Origin: an uncultured Roseateles sp.
GTDB taxonomy: Bacteria; Pseudomonadota; Gammaproteobacteria; Burkholderiales; Burkholderiaceae_C
Reading direction: 5' to 3'
Assembly: GCF_945956965.1 (NCBI RefSeq)
Contig: NZ_CAMFJS010000023.1
Span: 1-64,000, forward strand
DNA: 64,000 bases
The notes beneath the pieces were generated by a model. That model did no database searches. It saw only the letters and a list, made by a program, of their open reading frames with translations, and was not told where the DNA came from. The stretch's first letter is position 1; each line of letters opens with the position of its first letter. Shown one piece after another: positions 31,165 through 42,242 of this stretch. Made by a program: the position numbers and the translations under genes.

Positions 31165-33591
31165 TCAGCCGCGCAAGCGCGCGCCCAGCCCTTGAGCGAG
31201 TGCCGCGATCACAGCCGCCACCGTCTGCTCGATGCGCTCGTCGGTCAAGGTTTGCTTGTCGTCCAGCAATTCCAGGCGCACGGCCATGCTGCGCTCGCCG
31301 TCCTTCAGATCGGCGCTGGCCTGGGTGGGCTTGAACACGTCGAAGAGCTTGGCCGAGCGAATCAGGCCCTGGTGGGGCGAGCCCAGAATGGTCTGCATCA
31401 AAGCATCGTGTGTGACGCCCTCGCCCACGATGACGGCCAAGTCACGCAGAACGGCTTGCTGGCGCGGAATGGCCTGGGCCGCGGGCAAGACGCGCTGCAG
31501 CGCGGCATCGAGATCCAGTTCGAACAGCACCGGCGCGCTAGGCAATTCATAGCCCTGGCGCCATTTGGGATGCAACTCGCCGATCACACCGATGTCAACG
31601 CCGTCCAGCTCCACACGGGCACTGCGGCCGGGGTGCAAAGCAGGATGCTCAGCCGCCACGAAGCGCAGCTGACGCGGAGCGAACAGCGCCTCCAGATCAC
31701 CCTTCACATCGAAGAAATCGATCTGGCGATCACGCTGACTCCACTGCTGCTGCTCGGCCGGGCCAAAGGCCAGGCCGGCCAGGCGCATGGGCTGGTGAAT
31801 GCCGGCCACGCTGGTGTCGCCCTGCTGCACCGAGGCGTCGCGCAGGAACACGCGACCGATCTCGAACAAGCGCACGCGAGAGGCGCGGCGGCTCAGGTTG
31901 TAGCGCAAGGTATTGATCAGGCTGCCGATCAAGCTGGTGCGCATCACGGCCAGTGGTGCAGCGATCGGGTTAAGCAACTGGATGGGGTTCTGATTGCCCG
32001 CCAATTCCTTTTCCCAACGCGCTTCAACAAAGCTGAAGTTGATGGTCTCGAAGTAACCCAGGCCGGCGACGGCACTGCGCAGCGCGTGGGTGGCACGGCG
32101 CGACTCCGAGCCCACCTTGGCCACCACGGGCGCCAGCGGCGGCGTGTCCGGCAGCGTGGGGTAGCCCAGCACGCGGATGATTTCTTCGATCAGGTCTTCC
32201 TCGATGCGCAGATCGAAGCGGAAGCTCGGTGGCGTCACGGTCAGCACGCCGCCATTGGCGTCGCTTTCGGTGAAGCTCAGGCCCAGGCGGGTGAAGACGC
32301 GGGCGCAGTCTTCCTGCGTCACCGGCATGCCGATGATCTTGGCGGCGCGCGCCACGCGCAGGGCCACCGGCTGACGCTCGGGCAGCGTGGTGATGGTGTC
32401 GTCAATCGGGCCAGCCTGGCCGCCGCAAATCTCCAGCACCAGTTGGGTGATGCGTTCGATATGGGCCACGGTCAAGGCCGGGTCAACACCGCGCTCGAAG
32501 CGGTGGCCGGCGTCGGTCGAGAAGGCGAAGCGGCGCGAACGGCCCATCACTGCCTCGGGCCACCAGAAGGCGGCTTCGACGTAAATGTTTTGCGTGTCGT
32601 CCGACACGGCAGTGGCGTCGCCGCCCATGATGCCGGCCAGGGACTCAGGCGCCTGGCTGTCCGCCACCACGCCGACCTTCTCATCCAACTCAACGGTATT
32701 GCCGTTGAGCAGCTTGAGCGTTTCGCCCTTCTTGGCCCAGCGCACCACCAGCTCGTCGTGGATCTTGTCCAGATCGAAGATATGCGAGGGGCGGCCCAGT
32801 TCGAACATCACGTAGTTGGAGATGTCCACCAGCGCTGTCACGGAACGCTGGCCGCAGCGGGCAAGGCGATCCACCATCCAGGCCGGAGTTTGTGCCTTGG
32901 TATTGACGCCGCGCACGATGCGGCCGGAGAAACGGCCGCACAGATCAGCCGCTTCGATGCGCACCGGCAGCTTGTCTTGACGGGCCACCGGCACCGGCGT
33001 GCAATCAGGCTGAGTCAGCGGTGTGCCGGTCAGGGCCGAGACCTCACGGGCGATGCCGTAAACACTCAAGGCGTGAGCCAGATTGGGCGTCAGCTTCAGA
33101 GTGAACAAGGTGTCATCCAAGTTCAGGTGTTCGCGGATGTCTTGACCGACAGGGGCATCGGCAGCCAGTTCCAACAAGCCGCCATGCTCTTCGCTGAGCT
33201 TGAGTTCACGCGCCGAGCACAGCATGCCGAAGCTCTCAACGCCGCGCAGCTTGCCGACGCCGATCTTGAAGGCCTTGCCATCTTCGCCCGGAGGCAATTC
33301 GGCGCCCACAGTGGCCAGTGGCACCTTGATGCCGGCGCGCGCATTGGGCGCGCCGCAGACGATTTGCAGCGGCTCGGCCGCGCCAACATTGACCGAGCAG
33401 ATGCGCAGCTTATCGGCGTTAGGGTGTTGCTCAGCAGACAAGATTTCGGCCACTTTGATGCCGTGGAAAGGCGGCGCCACCGGGCGCAGCTCTTCGACTT
33501 CCAAGCCGGACATGGTCAACAGCTCGGCCAGTTCTTGGGTGTTCAGTGCTGGGTTGCAAAAGGCCCGCAGCCAGGATTCAGGAAATTGCAT
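31165..33591 (-). CDS. pheT: Phenylalanyl-tRNA synthetase beta subunit
   Basis: 808 residues, normal length. N-terminal SWLRAF start, tRNA-binding (EMAP-like) domain with [27 protein letters not shown]3/B4 editing domain, B5 domain, pseudo-catalytic core, and a C-terminal FDX-ACB anticodon-binding domain ([19 protein letters not shown] ... [19 protein letters not shown]). It forms the alpha2-beta2 synthetase with pheS, 53 bp upstream. Confidence 0.98.
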
Positions 33592-33644
33592 GGTGTGTGT
33601 TCTCTCGGGTTCTCAGATGGTGGCGTGGGTGGAGGTACTGGGCC

Positions 33645-34688
33645 TCACTTGAACTGCGACAAGAAGCGCAGATCACCATCAAAGAACTGGCGCAAATCAT
33701 TCACGCCGTAACGCAACATGGCCAGGCGGTCGATGCCGGAGCCAAAAGCAAAGCCGATGTAACGCTCAGGGTCCAGGCCCATATTGCGGATCACCTGCGG
33801 GTGCACCTGGCCGGAGCCAGACACTTCCAACCAACGGCCCTTCAGCGGACCGGACTCGAACATGATGTCGATCTCGGCGCTGGGCTCGGTGAAGGGGAAG
33901 TAGCTCGGGCGGAAGCGCAGCTGGAGCTGGTCGGTCTCGAAGAAGGCGGTGATGAAGTTGAGATAGACCGCCTTCAAGTCCTTGAAGCTGATGTTCTCGC
34001 CAACCCACAGGCCTTCGACCTGGTGGAACATGGGGGAATGCGTGGCGTCGTTGTCGACCCGGTAAGTGCGGCCGGGGGCGATGACGCGGATCTCAGGCAT
34101 GTGGTCCTGACCGGCATAGCGGCGGGCATGGGCCTGGGCATAGCGGATCTGCATCGGGCTGGTGTGCGGACGCAGATTGAAATAGCGCCCGCCTTCGTCC
34201 TTCATATCCACATAGAAGGTGTCCTGCATGGAGCGCGCAGGATGGTTCTCAGGATTGTTGAGGGCGGAGAAGCTGAACCAGTCGGTCTCGATCTCGGGGC
34301 CGTCGGCAACATCAAAACCCATCGAGCCGAAGATGGCCTCGATGCGCGCCATGGCACGCGTGATCGGGTGCAAGGCGCCGGTGCCACGGCTGCGGCCTGG
34401 AAGGGTCACGTCTAGCGCTTCAGCCTTCAACTGCAGAGCCAACTCGGCATCGGCCAGGGCTTGGCGGCGCTCGGTCAGCGCGGCCTCGATGCCACTCTTC
34501 AAGACATTGATCTCGGCGCCGCGCGCCTTCTTCTCGTCCACAGGCAGGGCCGCCAGACCCTTGAGCAACTCGGTCACGCGACCGGCCTTGCCCAGAAAAC
34601 GCGCCTTGGCGTTCTCCAGTTCGGCAGGCGTGCTGGTGGCGGCGAATTCGGCCTGGGCGGCTTGCAGCAATTGTTCGAGATCAGTCAT
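33645..34688 (-). CDS. pheS: Phenylalanyl-tRNA synthetase alpha subunit
   Basis: 347 residues. N-terminal coiled-coil for tRNA binding, then the class II catalytic core: [30 protein letters not shown] (motif 2 region), [50 protein letters not shown] and [25 protein letters not shown] (motif 3). It charges tRNA-Phe together with pheT. A strong intrinsic terminator and a 19-codon ORF in the gap to rplT suggest regulation at its leader. Confidence 0.98.
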
Positions 34689-34715
34689 CTTGAAGAAGAA
34701 ATTTCGGGCGGAAAC

Positions 34716-34746
34716 AAAAAAGGCCGAGCACCAGGGTGTCGGCCTT
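34716..34746 (-). terminator. Intrinsic terminator between rplT and pheS (probable attenuator)
   Basis: On the minus strand an 8-bp stem (34739-34746 with 34720-34727, 11-nt loop) runs into six T residues (plus-strand A's 34716-34721), 28 bp before the pheS start. Two further perfect or near-perfect hairpins (34788-34808 and 34758-34781) lie just before it. Because pheST follows, termination must be conditional or partial. Confidence 0.75.
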
Positions 34747-34754
34747 GAGGTTGC

Positions 34755-34814
34755 TCACCGCGGCTCCCGAAAGAGCCGCGGCTGCAAAGAACCGCCAAAG
34801 GCGGCTCTCTGCAT
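34755..34814 (-). CDS. Possible pheST leader peptide (19 aa)
   Basis: A short ORF whose ATG overlaps the rplT stop codon (TAATG), encoding [19 protein letters not shown]. It spans two hairpins and ends 8 bp before the pheS terminator. The position is that of E. coli pheM, the Phe-rich leader peptide of pheST. However, it has only two phenylalanine codons, so a Phe-sensing role is uncertain. It could also be a chance ORF. Confidence 0.35.
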   Translation of the reverse strand: MQRAAFGGSLQPRLFREPR

Positions 34815-35170
34815 TAAGCCAGTGCGGCCTTAACCTTGGCGAAGACGGTGGCAAAGCCAGCCGGATCGTTGACGGCCATGTCGGCCAAGACCTTGCGGTC
34901 GATCTCGATCTGAGCCTTCTTCAGGCCAGCCACAAACTTGCTGTAGGTGAGTCCCAGGCCACGGCTTGCTGCGTTGATACGAGCAATCCACAGAGCACGG
35001 AACACACGCTTCTTGGCGCGGCGGTCACGGTAGGCGTATTGGCCTGCCTTCATCACCGCCTGTTTGGCGATGCGGAAGACATTCTTACGACGACCACGGA
35101 AGCCCTTGGCCAGAGCCAGGACCTTCTTGTGACGGGCACGAGCGGTAACACCACGTTTAACGCGAGGCAT
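34814..35170 (-). CDS. rplT: 50S ribosomal protein L20
   Basis: 118 residues, fully typical: [66 protein letters not shown]. It binds 23S rRNA early in 50S assembly; in E. coli it also represses its own operon. A strong ribosome site (AAAGGAG) precedes the start. It follows rpmI by 26 bp. Confidence 0.99.
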
Positions 35171-35196
35171 ATTAAATCTCCTTTAGTTAAATGGGT

Positions 35197-35400
35197 TTAC
35201 AGACCAAAGCCGGGCAACATCTGAGCGATGTGACCCATATTGGTTTCGTGCACGGCAGCCGAGCCACGCAGGTGGCGCTTGTTCTTCGTGGACTTCTTGG
35301 TCAGGATGTGGCGCTTGAACGCTTGACCGCGCTTGACGGTACCACCCGGACGGACGCGGAAACGCTTCTTAGCGCCGCTCTTGGTCTTCATTTTGGGCAT
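35197..35400 (-). CDS. rpmI: 50S ribosomal protein L35
   Basis: 67 residues beginning [36 protein letters not shown] in family-typical order and ending [11 protein letters not shown]. The ATG at 35400 is preceded by AAGGAGC. Located between infC and rplT, the conserved order. Confidence 0.99.
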
Positions 35401-35473
35401 GTGAGTGCTCCTTTTAAGATGTCCCTGGGGCGGTTGAGGTCCTCTCAACACTTGCCAGCCTCAGGAGACTAAT

Positions 35474-35631
35474 AAGCCCGCCGATGACCAAATCAGCGGG
35501 CTTGAACTTCATACGGGCGCCATCTTGGCCGCCAGCCGGGCCGCCCCAAAGGCGGCGCTTGCAATTCAAAGCGGGCCACGGCCCGCTTTGAATTGCACCC
35601 CCTGAGGGGGTGTGCCTGCGTACCCGCAGGC
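35474..35631. repeat. Cluster of four stem-loops 3' of infC
   Basis: Between infC and rpmI there are, in series, an 8-bp-plus stem at 35474-35481/35496-35503, a perfect 16-bp stem at 35561-35576/35581-35596 with a CACG loop, a 7-bp stem at 35596-35602/35606-35612 and a 7-bp stem at 35614-35620/35625-35631. None has a T-run on the minus strand, so they look like packed extragenic palindromes, mRNA-processing or stability elements, rather than simple terminators. Confidence 0.7.
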
Positions 35632-35638
35632 AGAGGGC

Positions 35639-36184
35639 TTAGCGCTTCTTCGGCGCCAGCACCATGATCATCTGACGGCCTTCGAGGCGCGGCATGTTCT
35701 CAACCACGGCCACATCCGCCAACTCATCGCGGATACGTTCCAGCAAGCGCATACCGATGTCTTGGTGGGTAATTTCACGACCGCGGTAACGCAGCGTGAC
35801 CTTGCCCTTATCACCATCCTCAGCAATGAAGCGGCGCAGATTGCGCATCTTGATCTGGTAGTCGCCTTCGTCCGTACCCGGGCGGAACTTGACTTCCTTG
35901 ATTTCGATGACCTTCTGCTTGGACTTCGCCTCGGCCGCACGCTTTTGCTCGATGTACTTGAACTTGCCGTAGTCCATCAGGCGGCACACGGGCGGTGTCG
36001 CGGTGGCGGAAATTTCGACAACGTCAACATCCAACTCGCCCGCCATGCGCAGCGCTTCTTGGATGCTCACGATTCCGAGCGGCTCGTTTTCCGGACCGTT
36101 CAGACGAACTTCGGGAGCCATGATTTCGCGATTCAGCCGATGCTTACGCTCCGGTACAGCACGACGGTCAGCAAAAGTAGCGAT
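35639..36184 (-). CDS. infC: Translation initiation factor IF-3, starting at AUC
   Basis: 181 residues. IF-3N contains [26 protein letters not shown] and [21 protein letters not shown]-3C contains [25 protein letters not shown] and the closing [14 protein letters not shown]. It prevents premature 50S joining and polices start-codon choice. Reading upstream of the first ATG (36121) continues in frame with the typical beta-proteobacterial start [20 protein letters not shown], back to an ATC codon at 36182-36184 that has GAAAGG eight bases upstream (36193-36198). Non-AUG starts (AUU in E. coli) are the hallmark of infC autoregulation. Confidence 0.95.
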
Positions 36185-36256
36185 GGTGAAAACCTTTCAG
36201 CGAGCCCCAAGGCGAGAGGCCCAAACAAAACAAAAGCGCGCCTCGCTTGGCAAGAG

Positions 36257-38164
36257 TCAGGTCTTTGAGGAGATATCGGCTGAGGCCTTCGCTTGGAAGT
36301 CTGCCAGAGCCATCACACCCAAATCCTGGTTGCCACGGGCGCGTACCGCAACGGTTCCATTTGCCTTCTCCTTGTCGCCAACGACGAGGATGAACGGAAC
36401 CTTTTGCAAAGAATGCTCGCGGATTTTATACGTGATCTTCTCGTTACGCAAATCGGCCTGAACTCTAAGCCCTTGTTTCTGCAGCGATTTCACGATTTCC
36501 GCGACGTAATCCGCTTGTGCGTCGGTGATATTGGCCACCACCACCTGGGTCGGCGCCAGCCACACCGGCAGCGCGCCGGCATGCTGTTCGATCAGGATGC
36601 CGATGAAGCGCTCCAGACTGCCGACGATGGCGCGGTGCAGCATGACTGGCGCCTTGCGCTCGCCATGCTCGTCCACATATTCGGCACCCAAGCGACCCGG
36701 CATGGAGAAGTCCACCTGCATGGTGCCGCACTGCCACTGGCGGCCCAAGGCGTCTTTCAAGGTGTACTCGATCTTGGGGCCGTAGAAAGCGCCGTCGCCG
36801 GGCGCAATGATGTAGTCCACGCCCGAAGCGCGCAGCGACTCAATCAAGGCGTGCTCGGCCTTGTCCCAGACCTCGTCCGAGCCGATGCGGGCGTCGGGGC
36901 GAGTGGCCACCTTGTAGATGATGTCGGTGAAGCCGAAGTCCTTGTAGACCTTTTGCAGCAGCACCGTGTAGTTCACGCACTCCTGCAGGATCTGGTCCTC
37001 GGTACAGAAGATGTGGCCATCGTCTTGGGTAAAGCCGCGCACGCGCATGATGCCGTGCAAGCCACCCGTGGGCTCATTGCGGTGGCACTGACCGAACTCG
37101 CCGAAGCGCAGCGGCAGGTCGCGGTAGCTCTTGATGCCATGCTTGAAGATCAGGATGTGACCGGGGCAGTTCATCGGCTTGAGCGCGTAGTCACGCTTCT
37201 CCGACTCGGTCGTGAACATATTGTCTTTGTACTTATCCCAGTGGCCCGAGGCCTCCCACAGCGTCTTGTCCAGCAGCTGCGGGCCCTTGACTTCCTGGTA
37301 GCCGTTGTCACGGTAGACGCGGCGCATGTACTGCTCCACCTCTTGCCAGACCGTCCAGCCCTTGGGGTGCCAGAACACCACACCGGGCGCATGCTCGTCG
37401 ATGTGGAACAGCTCCAGCTCCTTGCCCAGCTTGCGGTGGTCGCGCTTTTCAGCCTCTTCCAGCATCACCAGGTACTTCTGCAGATCATCCTTGCTGGCCC
37501 AGGCCGTGCCGTAGATGCGCTGCAATTGCTCGTTACGGTGATCGCCGCGCCAGTAGGCGCCGGCCACCTTCATCAGCTTGAAGTGCTTGAGCTTGCCGGT
37601 GGACGGCACGTGCGGTCCGCGGCACAGGTCGGTGAACTTGCCTTCGGCGTAGAGCGAAACATCCTGATCAGCCGGAATGCTCTCGATGATCTCGGCCTTA
37701 TAGGCCTCACCCAAGCTCTTGAAGTAGGCCACGGCCTCGTCGCGCGGCAAGACCGAGCGGGTGACCTTTTCGTCCAGCTTGGCCAGCGCCGTCATCTTGG
37801 CTTCGATGGCGGCCAGATCCTCGGGTGTGAAGGGGCGCTTGTACGAGAAGTCGTAGAAGAAGCCATGCTCAATCACCGGGCCGATGGTGACCTGCGCCTC
37901 GGGGAACAACTCCTTGACGGCATAGGCCAGCAAGTGGGCGGTGGAGTGGCGGATGACTTCCAAGCCATCGGCATCCTTGTCGGTGATGATGGCCAGCTGC
38001 GCGTCGGCCTCGATCAAGTGGCTGGTGTCCACCAAATTGCCGTCCACGCGGCCAGCGAGCGCGGCTTTGGCCAGGCCGGCGCCGATGGAGGCAGCCACAT
38101 CGGCCACGGTGACGGCTTGCGGAAATTCACGCTTGGAACCGTCAGGCAGTTGAATCGAAATCAT
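36257..38164 (-). CDS. thrS: Threonyl-tRNA synthetase
   Basis: 635 residues, normal size. TGS domain at the N-terminus ([14 protein letters not shown]), the second additional (editing) domain with [20 protein letters not shown], the class II core with [51 protein letters not shown] and [16 protein letters not shown], then the anticodon-binding domain. It charges tRNA-Thr and edits Ser-tRNA-Thr. First gene of the translation operon; its leader has a threonine-rich peptide and a terminator (see those entries). Confidence 0.98.
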
Positions 38165-38229
38165 TGCTCAGTACTCCGAAATTTGCGCGGGCGCTTATGG
38201 CAGAAGATGAGAAAGCCAGCCCGACAATG

Positions 38230-38259
38230 AAAAAAGCGCGGCCACTGTGCCGCGCTTTT
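38230..38259 (-). terminator. Intrinsic terminator in the thrS leader (probable attenuator)
   Basis: Perfect 11-bp stem on the minus strand: AAAAGCGCGGC (38249-38259) and GCCGCGCTTTT (38232-38242) with a 6-nt loop, ending in six T residues (plus-strand A's 38230-38235). It lies 65 bp before the thrS ATG and 54 bp after the stop of a Thr-rich ORF. A segment just past that stop (38301-38310 in complement, GCCGCGGCTT) resembles the terminator's 3' arm and could pair with its 5' arm. Confidence 0.85.
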
Positions 38260-38313
38260 GACTGGGTTGCTGCTTTGCAAACAGCTAAGAAAGACGTGAC
38301 AAGCCGCGGCCGA

Positions 38314-38361
38314 CTAGAGAACCTGTGTGGTTGCGCTCTTAGTTCGCGGTGTCATAACCAT
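38314..38361 (-). CDS. Putative thrS leader peptide, threonine-rich (15 aa)
   Basis: Encodes MVMTPRTKSATTQVL, with four threonines in 15 residues (codons ACA, ACT, ACC, ACA). A ribosome site GAAAGG (38366-38371) lies four bases before this ATG and ten before an in-frame second ATG (38355). The stop codon is followed three bases later by the antiterminator-like segment 38301-38310. Codon bias, ribosome site and position ahead of a terminator fit a ribosome-mediated attenuator sensing charged tRNA-Thr. The role is inferred and no homologue is known to me. Confidence 0.7.
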   Translation of the reverse strand: MVMTPRTKSATTQVL

Positions 38362-38398
38362 GATGCCTTTCTCGCCCTTGTTCGTTGATCGAGCGCAG

Positions 38399-38404
38399 AT
38401 TGTA
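38399..38404 (-). promoter_or_regulatory. Possible -10 element of the thrS operon
   Basis: TACAAT on the minus strand, about 38 bp before the leader-peptide ATG and about 235 bp before thrS. No good -35 hexamer is present at 16-18 bp, so this is tentative. Confidence 0.3.
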
Positions 38405-38467
38405 GACGAGGCCTTGCGGAGCCCGCCATTTTTAGCGCCCCAAGCAGCGCAATCACCACGCTGGCGT

Positions 38468-38812
38468 CTAGCGCCGCTGGCCGCGCTCGATCTCATTGCC
38501 GATCACCGCGCCGCCGATCACGCCAATGGCCGTGCCCAGCCCGGGCTCCACCGCATGACCCAACACACCGCCGACCACGCCGCCCACCAAGGCCCCGCCA
38601 CCCGAGCTGGGTCCAACTGCGCCATAACGACTGGGGCCGTAGCCAGGGCGTCCATGACCATCACCATAGCCGCGCCGGTCCTCATAGTGATGCCCGCCAC
38701 GCGGGGCGACGCACACACAAGCACTCAAGCTGCTGACGGCGCACAGGACGATCAACAAGCGCAGCCCACGCGGCAAGACTTTGCGGGGCTGAAAAGCGAA
38801 GGATTCAGACAT
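38468..38812 (-). CDS. Glycine-zipper outer-membrane lipoprotein-like protein
   Basis: 114 residues. Lipoprotein signal peptide with lipobox LSAC (about residue 32), then a low-complexity Gly/Tyr/His/Arg segment, then a glycine-zipper repeat ALVGGVVGGVLGHAVEPGLGTAIGVIGGAVIGNEIER that can form a transmembrane or oligomerising helical hairpin. This is the arrangement of SlyB/YmgD-like glycine-zipper 2TM proteins of the outer membrane; specific function unknown. The ATG at 38812 (MSESFAFQ) gives the best signal peptide. Oriented like thrS, and upstream of its leader. Confidence 0.75.
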   Translation of the reverse strand: MSESFAFQPRKVLPRGLRLLIVLCAVSSLSACVCVAPRGGHHYEDRRGYGDGHGRPGYGPSRYGAVGPSSGGGALVGGVVGGVLGHAVEPGLGTAIGVIGGAVIGNEIERGQRR

Positions 38813-38901
38813 GGCGAACAACTCCGGCGCGATGGCATTCCAGATCGGAACGCTGACTCAACGCCGCCACGGGCCGCCGGGTTGTCGAAACTTGCTTTGT
38901 T

Positions 38902-40026
38902 TTACAACTGTAAAGCGCGCAGGCTGGGCGCCTCGCAGGCCTGGGCGAACTCATCTGCCAGGCGCTGGCTCTCGGCAATGGCGCGCAGCCAAGCTTTGGC
39001 GCGCGCGGGCATATCGTCGCCGTAGCGCTGAAAATCATTGCGATCCGGCAGCTTGGCATTGGGCAAGGTCGAGATCCAAGCCGGGTTGGGTGCCAGCAGC
39101 ACAACGTTGTCCAGCAGGGGCGTGGCGGCATGGCGCCGCTTCAAGGCCTTGTCCAGCCAACCCGGCACCACTTGCTGCTGGAAGTGCGGGTACAGCACCA
39201 GGCCAGCGCTTTGCTCATTGGCGGCCATGGCCGCGTAGTTGAGGTGCAGGTGATAGTCGGTGATGCCGCCATCCCAATACGCGCCGCGTGGAGCGCCAGG
39301 AATGTCATGCACTGCCTGCAGCCAGAAGGGGATCGCGCAGCTGGCCAGGATGCTGGCCTGGAAATTGGCCAGATTCAGCTCAACCGTGTGGCCGCGGAAG
39401 TCATCCAAGGGCAGGGGCAGCGGCGTGCGCGGGTCAGAAAAAGCCACCCGCTCCAGCCAAGCACCCAGGCTGGGGCGTGAAATCAAATTGGCCGCGAACG
39501 CGGCCGTGTAGCCCAGCGGCGTGCGCCAGCGCCCTTCCCGGCTGAGCAGCTTGCGCCCACGCGAGGCCAGCACATGCAGGCGAAAGCGCGGGTGGCTCAG
39601 GGCCAGCTGCTCGCGCCCACCAAAGACTTGGTCCAGGGTTTGCGCAAAGCCTTGGCTGACCCAGGCGGCGGAGGGCATCTTGCCCTTCTTAGCGCCCGGC
39701 TCATCCGCATAGCTTTGGTGCACATAGCCATGCGCCAGCTGGTCGAACTCATGTTTGACCTCGGCAGCATTGCGGGTCACGCAAGCGGTGGCCATGCGCC
39801 AAGCGCCAATGGAGGCGCCCATCAAATGCACCGGCTGCTCGCTGCGCGCCAGCCATTCGCCAAAGATGAACTGGTCCAGCGGTCCCAGGATCAGGCCCTT
39901 GGGGCCGCCGGCCGCCGCCGGCACCAGCTGCACATCTTCGGGCCGCAGGCCGCGCTCGGCCAAGCGGGCGCGCGCCCGTGGGCCAGCAAAGATCTGCAGG
40001 GCCGGGACGCTGCTACCGCCGCTCAT
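38902..40026 (-). CDS. Patatin-like phospholipase
   Basis: 374 residues. Patatin elements: oxyanion-type glycine-rich AAAGGPKGL near residue 38, nucleophile elbow MGASIGAWRMA (GxSxG), and the catalytic Asp motif in YWDGGITDYHL (DG[GA]). The Ser-Asp dyad is therefore intact and it should act as a lipid acyl hydrolase. No signal peptide, so probably cytoplasmic or peripherally membrane-bound. It starts two bases after the TonB receptor stop, implying cotranscription; substrate unknown. Confidence 0.86.
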   Translation of the reverse strand: MSGGSSVPALQIFAGPRARARLAERGLRPEDVQLVPAAAGGPKGLILGPLDQFIFGEWLARSEQPVHLMGASIGAWRMATACVTRNAAEVKHEFDQLAHGYVHQSYADEPGAKKGKMPSAAWVSQGFAQTLDQVFGGREQLALSHPRFRLHVLASRGRKLLSREGRWRTPLGYTAAFAANLISRPSLGAWLERVAFSDPRTPLPLPLDDFRGHTVELNLANFQASILASCAIPFWLQAVHDIPGAPRGAYWDGGITDYHLHLNYAAMAANEQSAGLVLYPHFQQQVVPGWLDKALKRRHAATPLLDNVVLLAPNPAWISTLPNAKLPDRNDFQRYGDDMPARAKAWLRAIAESQRLADEFAQACEAPSLRALQL

Positions 40027-40028
40027 GC

Positions 40029-42242
40029 TCAGAGCTTGTATTCCAGCACCGCGCCGTACTGGGTGCGGGAGCTGCGCTCGACGCCGATGCTGTTGTCCGC
40101 ACCATTGACCAGGAGCGAGCGGGTATCCAGCGGCGCCAGGTTATTGGCCGAGACCCGCAGCGACAAGCTCTTGCTGAAGGTCCACTGCGCAAACATATCT
40201 AAGGCGCGGCTATTGGACGCATCCAGCGACTGGCTGAGCGTCTGCTGCGTCAGATAGCCCGGCGTGTAGGCCAGCGACACACCCATATTCAGCGGCAGGC
40301 TGCTCAGCCGGTAGTCAAAACCGGCATTGGCCGACCAGGGCTGCTGGCCGTCGAGGCGGTTATTGGCCATGGCAATCGCGTCCACATTGGAGTGGTAGAC
40401 GCTGATATTGCCGCGCAGATTCAGCGCCAGCTTGGGGTCGAACAAGGCGGGCAGCAGCTCACCCGCGCGGCCCTTGACTTCCAGCTCCAAGCCCATGGTC
40501 TGGGCACGCGAGAAGTTCTGCGGCTGCGACACATAGCGTGGCAGCGGCGACCAATCCACGGTCTGCTGGGTCGTGACGTTACGAATCAAGTCGCTGATGC
40601 CGCGGTAGAAGCCGCCCACGCTGACCATGCCGCCGCCGGCCAGATACTTTTCAAACGCGATGTCCAGGCCGGTGGCCAGTTCGGGCTTGAGGTTGGGGTT
40701 GCCAATGCGGTCCGGGTTGAGCGGGTCGTTGGCCTGAGGATTGCCGTTCGCATCCAGCAAGGGCTTGACGTTGCTGATGCTGGGCCGAGCCAAGAGCGCG
40801 TTCAAGTCCGGCGCCTTGTAGCTGCGCGTGACGCTGGCGCGGATCATGTCCTTGCCCTTGGGGTCTAACTTGTAATTCAAGTGCCACAGCGGCGTCACCA
40901 CGGTGCTGGTATTGCTGACCTGATTGCCTTCACCGCTGCTGGTGGTTTGAATGCGCTCGGCGCGCAGGCCGATATAAGTGGACCATTGGGGCGACAGCTC
41001 CCACTCGTCCTGCACGAACAGGGCTTGGCGCTGGATGCGCGCACCGAAGGGCTGGCCTTCGATGCCTGGCTGCTGCGGCCGGCCGTTCTCGGTGATGCTG
41101 CGGGTTTCGTCGCGCTGGCGCCATTCCAGATCCCAGCCCACCGTCAGGCTGTGATCCTCACCCAGCAACTGGCCGTATTTGCCGCCCTGGATCACGCTCT
41201 GGTCGTGGCTTTCTCCCAGATTGACACGCCACACCTGCGCCTCGGTGGCCGGGGCCACGACGCGGAAGCTGCGGTTGTCATTCGTGCCCTTGGAATCCTG
41301 CAAGGCCAGTTTCAACTCAATGCGTTGCGAGTCACTGAAACGGTTGATCCACTGCGCATTGCCGCGCAGGTTCTGCCAAGTGCCGCGGCTGAGCGAGTCA
41401 TCATCCACGCCAGGGAAACCGCTGAGCACCTCGTTCTGGAAGCTCATGCGGTTGCGCCAATAGCCTTTCTGCACAAAGGCTTGCAGGGCCAGCGACTCTT
41501 CATCGCTGATGCGCCAGTTGACGCGCGGGGCCGAGTTGAAGCCATGGCCCCAGTTGTCTTGCACACCGCGCTGAATGACTTCCGAGGGCTGCTCATTGCT
41601 GCCGAGCGCCTTGCGGTCTGTGACCACTTCGGTTTGCTGGCGCCACTCAAAACCGGACAGCGGCACCGAGATCGAGACATTGCCGATCTTCTCGCCATAA
41701 GTGAAGGTGCCCGAAGGCGTAGGCCGCACGGCGTTATAGCCCAGGCCCAAGCGCAGATCGCGCTGCGAAACGCGCGGCGCGTCCTTCAAGATGATGTTGA
41801 TGGCGCCGGCCACGGCCTGCGCGCTTTGGTCAGCGGTCGGACCTTTGGTGACCTCGATGCGCTCCACCTGAGCGGGGTCCAACTGGTCCAGCGCGAAGCC
41901 TGGGGGCGCTGGGTCGCCGTTGATCAGAATCAGGGTGTAGCCCGAGCCAAGGCCACGCATACGCGGTGCGCCCCCGGCGACGGACACGCCCGGCAGGCGT
42001 TTGAGCACATCGGCCACATTGGTGTCGCCGAACTTTTCCAGCTCCTCCCGCCCGTAAATCTGCTTGGCCACCGGCGCGCGGCGGCGCAAATCGGTATCGC
42101 TGCTCTGGCGCGAAATTTCCACCCGTTCCAGCTTGGCGCCGGGGCGAGCCTGCGGCTCGGCACCCGGCTGGGCTTCTTGGGCTTGCGCCAGGGTCACAGA
42201 CAACAAAACACAGGCGGCGGCAATGGGCGACAGGGATTTCAA
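40029..42242 (-). CDS. TonB-dependent outer-membrane receptor
   Basis: About 737 residues. Signal peptide MKSLSPIAAACVLLSVTLAQAQA, plug domain with QIYGREELEKFGDTNVADVLKRLPGVSVAGG, MRGLGSGYTLILINGDPAP, LDPAQVERIEVTKGPTADQSAQAVAGAINIILK, then a 22-strand barrel ending in SRTQYGAVLEYKL with the terminal aromatic-x-Leu pattern. Ligand not determinable; siderophore or other iron complexes are typical, and no Fur box was recognised. Start: UUG at 42242 with GGAG eight bases upstream gives the clean signal peptide; another UUG at 42269 is less plausible. Confidence 0.92.
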   Translation of the reverse strand: MKSLSPIAAACVLLSVTLAQAQEAQPGAEPQARPGAKLERVEISRQSSDTDLRRRAPVAKQIYGREELEKFGDTNVADVLKRLPGVSVAGGAPRMRGLGSGYTLILINGDPAPPGFALDQLDPAQVERIEVTKGPTADQSAQAVAGAINIILKDAPRVSQRDLRLGLGYNAVRPTPSGTFTYGEKIGNVSISVPLSGFEWRQQTEVVTDRKALGSNEQPSEVIQRGVQDNWGHGFNSAPRVNWRISDEESLALQAFVQKGYWRNRMSFQNEVLSGFPGVDDDSLSRGTWQNLRGNAQWINRFSDSQRIELKLALQDSKGTNDNRSFRVVAPATEAQVWRVNLGESHDQSVIQGGKYGQLLGEDHSLTVGWDLEWRQRDETRSITENGRPQQPGIEGQPFGARIQRQALFVQDEWELSPQWSTYIGLRAERIQTTSSGEGNQVSNTSTVVTPLWHLNYKLDPKGKDMIRASVTRSYKAPDLNALLARPSISNVKPLLDANGNPQANDPLNPDRIGNPNLKPELATGLDIAFEKYLAGGGMVSVGGFYRGISDLIRNVTTQQTVDWSPLPRYVSQPQNFSRAQTMGLELEVKGRAGELLPALFDPKLALNLRGNISVYHSNVDAIAMANNRLDGQQPWSANAGFDYRLSSLPLNMGVSLAYTPGYLTQQTLSQSLDASNSRALDMFAQWTFSKSLSLRVSANNLAPLDTRSLLVNGADNSIGVERSSRTQYGAVLEYKL

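Follow-up and report, generated by a model that had tools for sequence, protein, structure and literature searches.

Several bacterial attenuators are known to use a leader peptide to sense the supply of a charged tRNA. In Escherichia coli, the pheST operon is preceded by a leader peptide rich in phenylalanine codons (pheM) and a terminator, coupled through alternative pairings of RNA segments (1:2, 2:3 and 3:4), and the his and trp leaders are likewise known leader-peptide attenuators. The leader of the E. coli thr operon (Thr_leader, which we take to be Rfam RF00506) carries threonine codons that are sensed by its leader peptide, and the genes it controls are those of biosynthesis. The same organism's thrS gene, which encodes threonyl-tRNA synthetase, is the textbook example of translational self-repression by a synthetase, exerted at a tRNA-like operator. 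A survey of attenuators was reportedly made by Vitreschak and co-workers in 2004. A short open reading frame upstream of thrS in Streptomyces lividans has been proposed as a threonine-dependent leader, with a peptide, MKRVRPFLETTPGFVPAR, that holds two threonines; in the part of that report considered here the proposal is weak, the leader being described as leaderless and with no clear terminator (PMC8079986).

The locus described here lies in a 64,000-nucleotide stretch of DNA from an uncultured Roseateles sp., which was analysed as a whole and is called the window. A short open reading frame with threonine codons and a terminator precede thrS on its minus strand, and we consider it very probable that the two make up a ribosome-mediated attenuator of thrS transcription with charged threonine tRNA as its signal, the response to the tRNA being what we infer. 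The case is built by sequence and comparison on a threonine-rich frame, the terminator, the position of one RNA segment, a switch in excess over shuffled sequences and the lack of any other promoter-like site. An attenuator of this kind had been proposed from the letters of the window (the sequence-only reading), and the conserved threonine codons, the lack of a promoter-like site after the terminator and a shuffle-controlled model of the folding states have lent it support.

The leader region in the window

The elements of the locus are the following.

36257 to 38164, minus strand: thrS, threonyl-tRNA synthetase, the gene proposed to be regulated (Pfam TGS, tRNA_SAD, tRNA-synt_2b and HGTP_anticodon)
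31165 to 36184, minus strand: infC, rpmI, rplT, pheS and pheT, on the same strand as thrS (Pfam and sequence)
38399 to 38404, minus strand: predicted -10 element TACAAT, with a transcript start estimated at about 38392
38366 to 38373, minus strand: Shine-Dalgarno-like region GAGAAAGG
38314 to 38361, minus strand: leader reading frame as first read, MVMTPRTKSATTQVL, with its stop codon TAG at 38316-38314
From 38355, minus strand: probable true form of the leader, MTPRTKSATTQVL, 13 codons from the second in-frame ATG
38340 to 38359, minus strand: near-invariant nucleotide core GGTTATGACACCGCGAACTA, defined by conservation and containing the dicodon CGA-ACT (Arg-Thr)
38345 to 38354, minus strand: segment 1, UGACACCGCG, paired with 38308-38297 in the minimum free energy (MFE) fold of the free leader
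38301 to 38310, minus strand: segment 2, GCCGCGGCUU, which mimics the terminator 3' arm and can pair with segment 1 or with segment 3, the latter in the MFE fold of the stalled state
38249 to 38259, minus strand: segment 3, the 5' arm of the predicted terminator, AAAAGCGCGGC
38232 to 38242, minus strand: segment 4, the terminator 3' arm, GCCGCGCUUUU, with a U tract that runs on to 38230

Along the minus strand, TACAAT is followed by GAGAAAGGCATC, the two ATG codons at 38361 and 38355, the rest of the leader, TAG, the mimic segment, the terminator and thrS. The ribosome site and the 15-codon frame MVMTPRTKSATTQVL with four threonines are thus present as first read, and the mimic GCCGCGGCTT (38310-38301) and the terminator stem (38259-38232, followed by T's) sit where they had been placed. 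Two details of the sequence-only reading have to be amended: the terminator does precede thrS, but by count its stem ends 67 and not 65 nucleotides before the thrS ATG; and the short threonine frame is there, but probably starts at the second ATG, 38355 (MTPRT...), since the first ATG is kept at only 21 of 123 leader loci of the family, with GTG or TTG in its place in 12 more. The terminator stem spans 11 bp, and a further small hairpin lies between it and segment 2. In 119 aligned family sequences, the Shine-Dalgarno-like region shows a conservation of 0.95-0.98 from the second G of GAG on. At the leader in the window, no full match to a sigma-70 promoter was found. With up to three mismatches allowed, a 20-mer around the leader start has a single match in the 4.96-Mb genome.

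We propose the following course of events. Transcription is predicted to start just before the leader. When threonine tRNA is plentiful, the ribosome would reach the leader stop codon, where its footprint would cover segment 2; after its release, segments 1 and 2 would pair. With segment 2 covered or paired, segment 3 would be free for segment 4, and RNA polymerase would halt before thrS. When threonine tRNA is short, the ribosome would stall on the early threonine codons and mask segment 1, so that segments 2 and 3 could pair, no terminator would form and thrS would be transcribed.

The folds of the window RNA offer a structure for each of these states. In RNA free from 38330, as with a ribosome stalled on the early threonine codons, the MFE fold pairs GCCGCG(G)CUU with AAGCGCGGC; this is the pairing of the mimic segment with the terminator 5' arm, with one bulged G, that had been foreseen, and it is matched by 1% of shuffles (p 0.01 for the 2:3 duplex against 100 shuffled spacers; the window is locus L035). 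In the whole free leader, the weaker pairing expected between the early leader and the mimic segment is realised as a 1:2 hairpin of UGACACCGCG with CGCGG-CU-UGUCA, which is matched by 3% of shuffles (p 0.03); here the Shine-Dalgarno region pairs with a downstream CUUUC, and the terminator 5' arm is mostly unpaired. In RNA free from 38301, as with a ribosome at the stop codon, the terminator forms. The terminator stretch alone is unusually stable relative to shuffles (z -3.25) and the whole 246-nt leader gives z -1.68, while the fold energies of the stalled and released stretches do not lie below those of shuffles (z 0.05 and -0.23).

The genes downstream on the same strand, from infC to pheT, are possibly co-regulated with thrS, as the sequence-only reading had suggested for infC through ihfA. 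The apparent start of infC is an ATC (36184-36182, minus strand), the IF3 frame extending upstream of the listed ATG at 36121; E. coli IF3 is autoregulated, and a rare start codon would fit such autoregulation. A weak hairpin (AAGCG/CGCTT) with a T-rich tail, at 36248-36234 on the minus strand, lies directly after the thrS stop codon and before infC, and it could lower read-through into infC.

Conservation, geometry and coding of the leader

The sample of the window's family (f1) comprised 150 genomes from 126 genera, of which 149 yielded thrS; the upstream region was read at each of these 149 loci. With presence defined as at least 15 of 21 bases and a start codon in place, the core GGTTATGACACCGCGAACTAC occurs at 123 of these loci, at 122 of them with at least 17 of 21 bases and at 81 perfectly; the weakest match (L163) is doubtful. 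Within the genus, where 17 genomes have thrS and 16 loci are readable (the gene is split in G017), the core is present at 14. Among the 26 family loci that lack the core, 17 have some terminator match, and three (L091, L140 and L156) have CGA-ACT leaders. A terminator match with no visible leader was observed at the two remaining loci of the genus (L019 and L020) and at up to 14 further family loci (e.g. L066, L082 and L083); a -10-like hexamer lies close upstream in several of them, and the matches at L086 and L120 may be unrelated hairpins.

The leader attenuator appears, by its sequence, to sit before thrS in many Burkholderiales. A pattern search of 300 genomes of the order, allowing at most two mismatches, matched 72, some of the two-mismatch matches lying away from thrS, and in the loci fetched the core stands directly before thrS in nine families (f1, f3, f7, f9, f22, f31, f34, f38 and f46). 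For named species, 80 loci were returned out of at least 119 stretches with a 17-base pattern; thrS lies just 3' in 74 of the 80, four are cut by the locus end and two (L295 and L300) are without it. The genera there include Variovorax, Acidovorax, Comamonas, Rhodoferax, Roseateles, Massilia, Janthinobacterium, Cupriavidus, Burkholderia and Paraburkholderia, and the leader peptides of Burkholderia, Paraburkholderia and Cupriavidus resemble those of f31. Of 20 further thrS loci picked, which include L248 with a core of 15/21, nine have a short frame that carries CGA-ACT in phase close to its start, as in MSFRTTTTGTLYLG and MAVRTTTTHP, against a mean of 0.10 and a maximum of 1 in shuffles; a tenth has CGC-ACA, and the leader of L243 has TTA-ACT by eye. 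No CGA-ACT leader was found at the 29 loci of the class outgroup. The leader variants total 161, namely the 123 family loci and 38 more. None of three leader peptides matched NCBIfam, and one scan of viral contigs gave no match.

The terminator proved to be conserved with the leader, as the sequence-only reading had suggested checking, at 119 of the 123 family leader loci; the finder missed L062, L077, L085 and L137, in some of which a hairpin is visible by eye. Over the 119 loci, the distance from the stem end to the thrS ATG has a median of 27 nt (5th-95th percentile 19-70) and stays below 45 nt in 86. A thrS transcript starting downstream of the terminator would have spoken against attenuation, and no -10-like hexamer occurs in this gap at any of the 119 loci, in a scan that reached to 18 nt before the thrS ATG. 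Upstream of the leader, a -10 element (at least 5/6) is found at 96 of 121 family leader loci, mostly 43-62 nt before the leader start.

It was further expected that the threonine codons would be conserved if they served regulation, and threonine does stand almost always at codons 2 and 5 and at about a quarter of the later ones. The 123 family leaders comprise 121 distinct ones, of which 118 have ACA as codon 2 and all have ACT or ACG as codon 5; of the 38 further leaders, 37 come from other families and one (L190) from the window's own. Beyond codon 5, threonine makes up 278 of 1136 in-frame codons in the family (24.5%) as against 1.5% and 2.8% in frames 1 and 2 and 7.4% after base shuffling, and 15.1% in the further leaders of the order as against 1.9% and 3.8% in the other frames and 6.3% after shuffling. 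Individual leaders vary: codons 6-8 hold two or three threonines in the closest relatives of the window leader (e.g. MTPRTTSTTSQVL in L006) but none in the window leader itself, MTPRTKSATTQVL, and some leaders have threonine at codons 2 and 5 only (L138). The codon pattern suggests that the leader frame is translated and senses threonine.

The alternative pairing and the modelled switch

Segment 2 would lie under a ribosome that has halted at the stop codon, and the position of this segment can be followed across the family. Counted from the first base of the stop codon, the first CGCG after codon 8 starts at a median distance of 8 nt; this word is present in 107 of 119 spacers (36% in shuffles), and in 96 of the 107 it lies within -12 to +20. 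The CCGCG mimic itself occurs in 63 of 119 spacers (16% in shuffles); since the reversed word GCGCC occurs in 50, composition explains part of this excess. In f7 (L199, L200 and L205-L207) a different arrangement was observed by eye: a small hairpin that recurs there, e.g. CGACGCUAGUCG, has the stop codon in its loop, and the U run that follows the hairpin can pair with a run of A's ahead of the terminator. This hairpin is possibly a lineage-specific form of segment 2.

When the duplexes of each spacer were scored against 100 dinucleotide shuffles, the 119 family loci gave mean z values of -1.27 for 1:2 and -1.56 for 2:3, with p <= 0.05 in 31% and 41% of loci. The duplexes are weak at the 38 further loci (z -0.56 and -0.79; p <= 0.05 in 11% and 21%), where the 2:3 value differs by family: it reaches -1.57 in f46 and f34, and the duplex is absent in f7 (-0.30) and f31 (+1.03).

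A state model was used to follow how far the terminator 5' arm is paired while the 3' arm has yet to be synthesised. It distinguishes stalled, terminating and released states and was compared with 20 shuffle replicates. The difference between stalled and released is 0.159 at the 119 family loci against 0.017-0.064 in shuffles, and 0.171 at the 38 further loci against -0.009 to 0.054; f7 and f31 reach 0.30 and 0.27 against 0.06 and 0.07. Between stalled and terminating, the difference is 0.107 against 0.045-0.088 in the family and 0.204 against 0.032-0.122 at the further loci, while the share of family loci at which it exceeds 0.2 is not raised over that in shuffles (0.18 and 0.18). In the window, the pairing is 0.82 when stalled, 0.80 when terminating and 0.60 when released, so its contrast is one of stalled against released. 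At equilibrium the terminator dominates most states, with a mean probability of 0.84 even when the ribosome is stalled, and the switch must therefore be kinetic, decided during RNA synthesis; in known attenuators, too, the choice is made while the RNA is being synthesised.

Comparative support for the 2:3 pairing comes mainly from its retention. Of the cells for the six 2:3 pairs in the family alignment, 94% hold a canonical pair, as against 21-51% when the pairing is slid. The covariation that had been looked to as a check is slight: the pairs are kept mostly by constancy or by one-sided change from C-G to U-G, and a both-sided change, C-G to U-A, occurs at one of the six pairs in 5 of 119 sequences. 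RNAalifold, run on the 119 family sequences, recovered nothing beyond the terminator and, at the core, a hairpin of 4 bp. In a swap test on 40 loci with other terminator arms, the spacer native to a locus did not outperform foreign f1 spacers (on average a fraction of 0.73 was as good, one empty-spacer row included). Covariation noted by eye in L055, L058 and L062 was not borne out; L055 and L058 are unremarkable in the swap test, and L062 stood outside it because no terminator was found there. Taken together, the duplex, state-model, alignment and swap results give the 2:3 pairing good support within the window's family, while outside it the pairing is only modelled.

Neighbouring tRNA genes, rare codons and other forms of thrS control

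The surroundings of thrS differ between lineages. A tRNA-Val signature within 450 nt upstream of the gene is present at 19 of 29 outgroup loci, 36 of 58 loci of the order set and 1 of 149 in the family, and ARAGORN identified tRNA-Val(GAC) in all eight loci checked. Terminator and leader could accordingly be imagined as a relic of the tRNA-Val gene, the short frame having no regulatory role or merely aiding thrS translation, as might be suggested by the signature at 17 of 20 core-less loci of the order (beside 19 of 38 with the core and the 19 of 29 in the outgroup) and by L234 and L240, which have tRNA-Val and a terminator with no leader visible. This account is very unlikely: tRNA-Val stands at only 1 of the 123 family leader loci, yet leader and terminator persist there, mostly with a -10-like site of their own, and a relic can accommodate neither the threonine enrichment nor the shuffle-controlled switch. 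Sub-threshold matches to Rfam HPnc0260 were observed antisense over the tRNA-Val gene and leader (L242 348-502, L250 394-526 and L239 375-539); they are probably an artefact of tRNA complementarity in the model.

The near-invariance of codons 2-5 (ACA CCG CGA ACT) over the family sample calls for a separate explanation, given that in five genes of the window operon ACA makes up 5 of 93 threonine codons, ACT 8 of 93 and CGA none of 155 arginine codons. CGA occurs in 115 of 121 leaders, and CGA-ACU persists where other codons differ (the 9 of 20 picks, shuffle maximum 1). The nascent peptide or CGA-ACU might on these grounds stall the ribosome on another cue, such as arginine tRNA or translation speed, and work the same RNA switch, but we give this even less credence: the codon after the CGA position encodes threonine in 121 of 121 family and 38 of 38 further leaders, five leaders, from two other families, have CTG in place of CGA (L209, L210, L217, L231 and L232), and further threonine codons are enriched. 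The 1:2 pairing was considered as the cause of the rare codons and rejected. In 11 sequences from the genus, between 10 and 68% of 384 synonymous codon sets pair equally well, or 13 to 91% with weighting by codon usage, so the pairing does not demand them. A second function of the leader core, at the nucleotide level, is likely.

Outside the Burkholderiales, many Gammaproteobacteria have a hairpin that mimics the tRNA-Thr anticodon arm before thrS, e.g. GUGGUCCCUCGUAUCGACCACCACUG in L268, and a similar hairpin is seen by eye upstream of E. coli thrS. A scan for hairpins of the ThrRS operator type was fitted by loosening the loop size after the outgroup sequences had been viewed, and was checked against a reversed control. 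It matched 17 of the 29 loci in the outgroup, where the control gave 2, and 8 of the 207 in the Burkholderiales, where the control gave 10; a first, stricter scan had matched 4 of 29 outgroup loci. Among the eight Burkholderiales matches, the one at a core-less f1 locus and three of the five at other core loci are terminator stems, and two more lie at f1 leader loci. In one Gammaproteobacterium (L276), three tRNA-Thr anticodon-like hairpins were seen by eye in tandem within the last 130 bases before thrS; at most one such hairpin was noticed at the other outgroup loci.

That the leader RNA is itself an operator bound by ThrRS as in E. coli, with the short frame incidental, would suit the hairpin's frequency in the outgroup, the nucleotide-level conservation of the core, which a protein site would also show, and one subset with hairpins at 5 of 38 loci against none in the control (though three of the five are those terminator stems), but it is the least credible of the alternatives, since the hairpin in Burkholderiales does not exceed its reversed control, the threonine enrichment is strictly confined to one frame and no NGU-type loop was seen by eye in the window leader.

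With ribosome-mediated attenuation as the preferred reading, the control of thrS seems, as far as sequence can tell, to have been exchanged, the Burkholderiales using attenuation and other Gammaproteobacteria the ThrRS operator. The simplest story would be one ancestral tRNA-Val / thrS locus at which the Burkholderiales line swapped the operator for attenuation. A combined and more tentative proposal, to which we give somewhat less than even weight, is that this exchange took place at the tRNA-Val / thrS locus and that the start region GGUUAUGACACCGCGAACUAC (CGA-ACU in distant families) carries a second signal, either a slow CGA that synchronises ribosome and polymerase before the sensing threonine codon or a site for a trans-acting factor.

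While the principle of attenuation is known, this thrS member, its breadth and its exchange with the ThrRS operator were not found described among the papers listed in searches of the open-licence literature, and the same holds for any thrS leader in Betaproteobacteria. In the parts considered, a survey of premature terminators names threonyl-tRNA synthetase for the E. coli autoregulation only (PMC2965389), and three further papers hold no description of this thrS leader (PMC4833913, PMC4603805 and PMC7373986). Rfam, including Thr_leader and T-box, gave no match at gathering score over positions 33000-42000 of the window, and in eight relatives tRNA alone scored above gathering, all else being sub-threshold.

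The proposed attenuator would provide a threonine-tRNA sensor native to the Burkholderiales. The 161 natural variants of one attenuator should make it possible to test how regulation is swapped at one essential gene, why the control codons are rare and how far the start region of an attenuator is constrained. Among described systems, the Streptomyces lividans proposal shares no visible similarity with MTPRT in the part of the source considered. The E. coli thr operon leader has threonine codons in its leader peptide as here, whereas the present leader has no Rfam match and its gene is thrS. The E. coli ThrRS operator concerns the same gene, but it is a protein-binding tRNA mimic, and its hairpin is at control level in Burkholderiales loci overall; a large sister group seems to control thrS by a different principle. 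Like E. coli pheST with pheM, the locus combines a leader of cognate codons and a terminator before an aminoacyl-tRNA synthetase operon; unlike it, the codons are those of threonine, the operon is that of thrS, the start core is near-invariant and contains rare codons, and the lineage is another.
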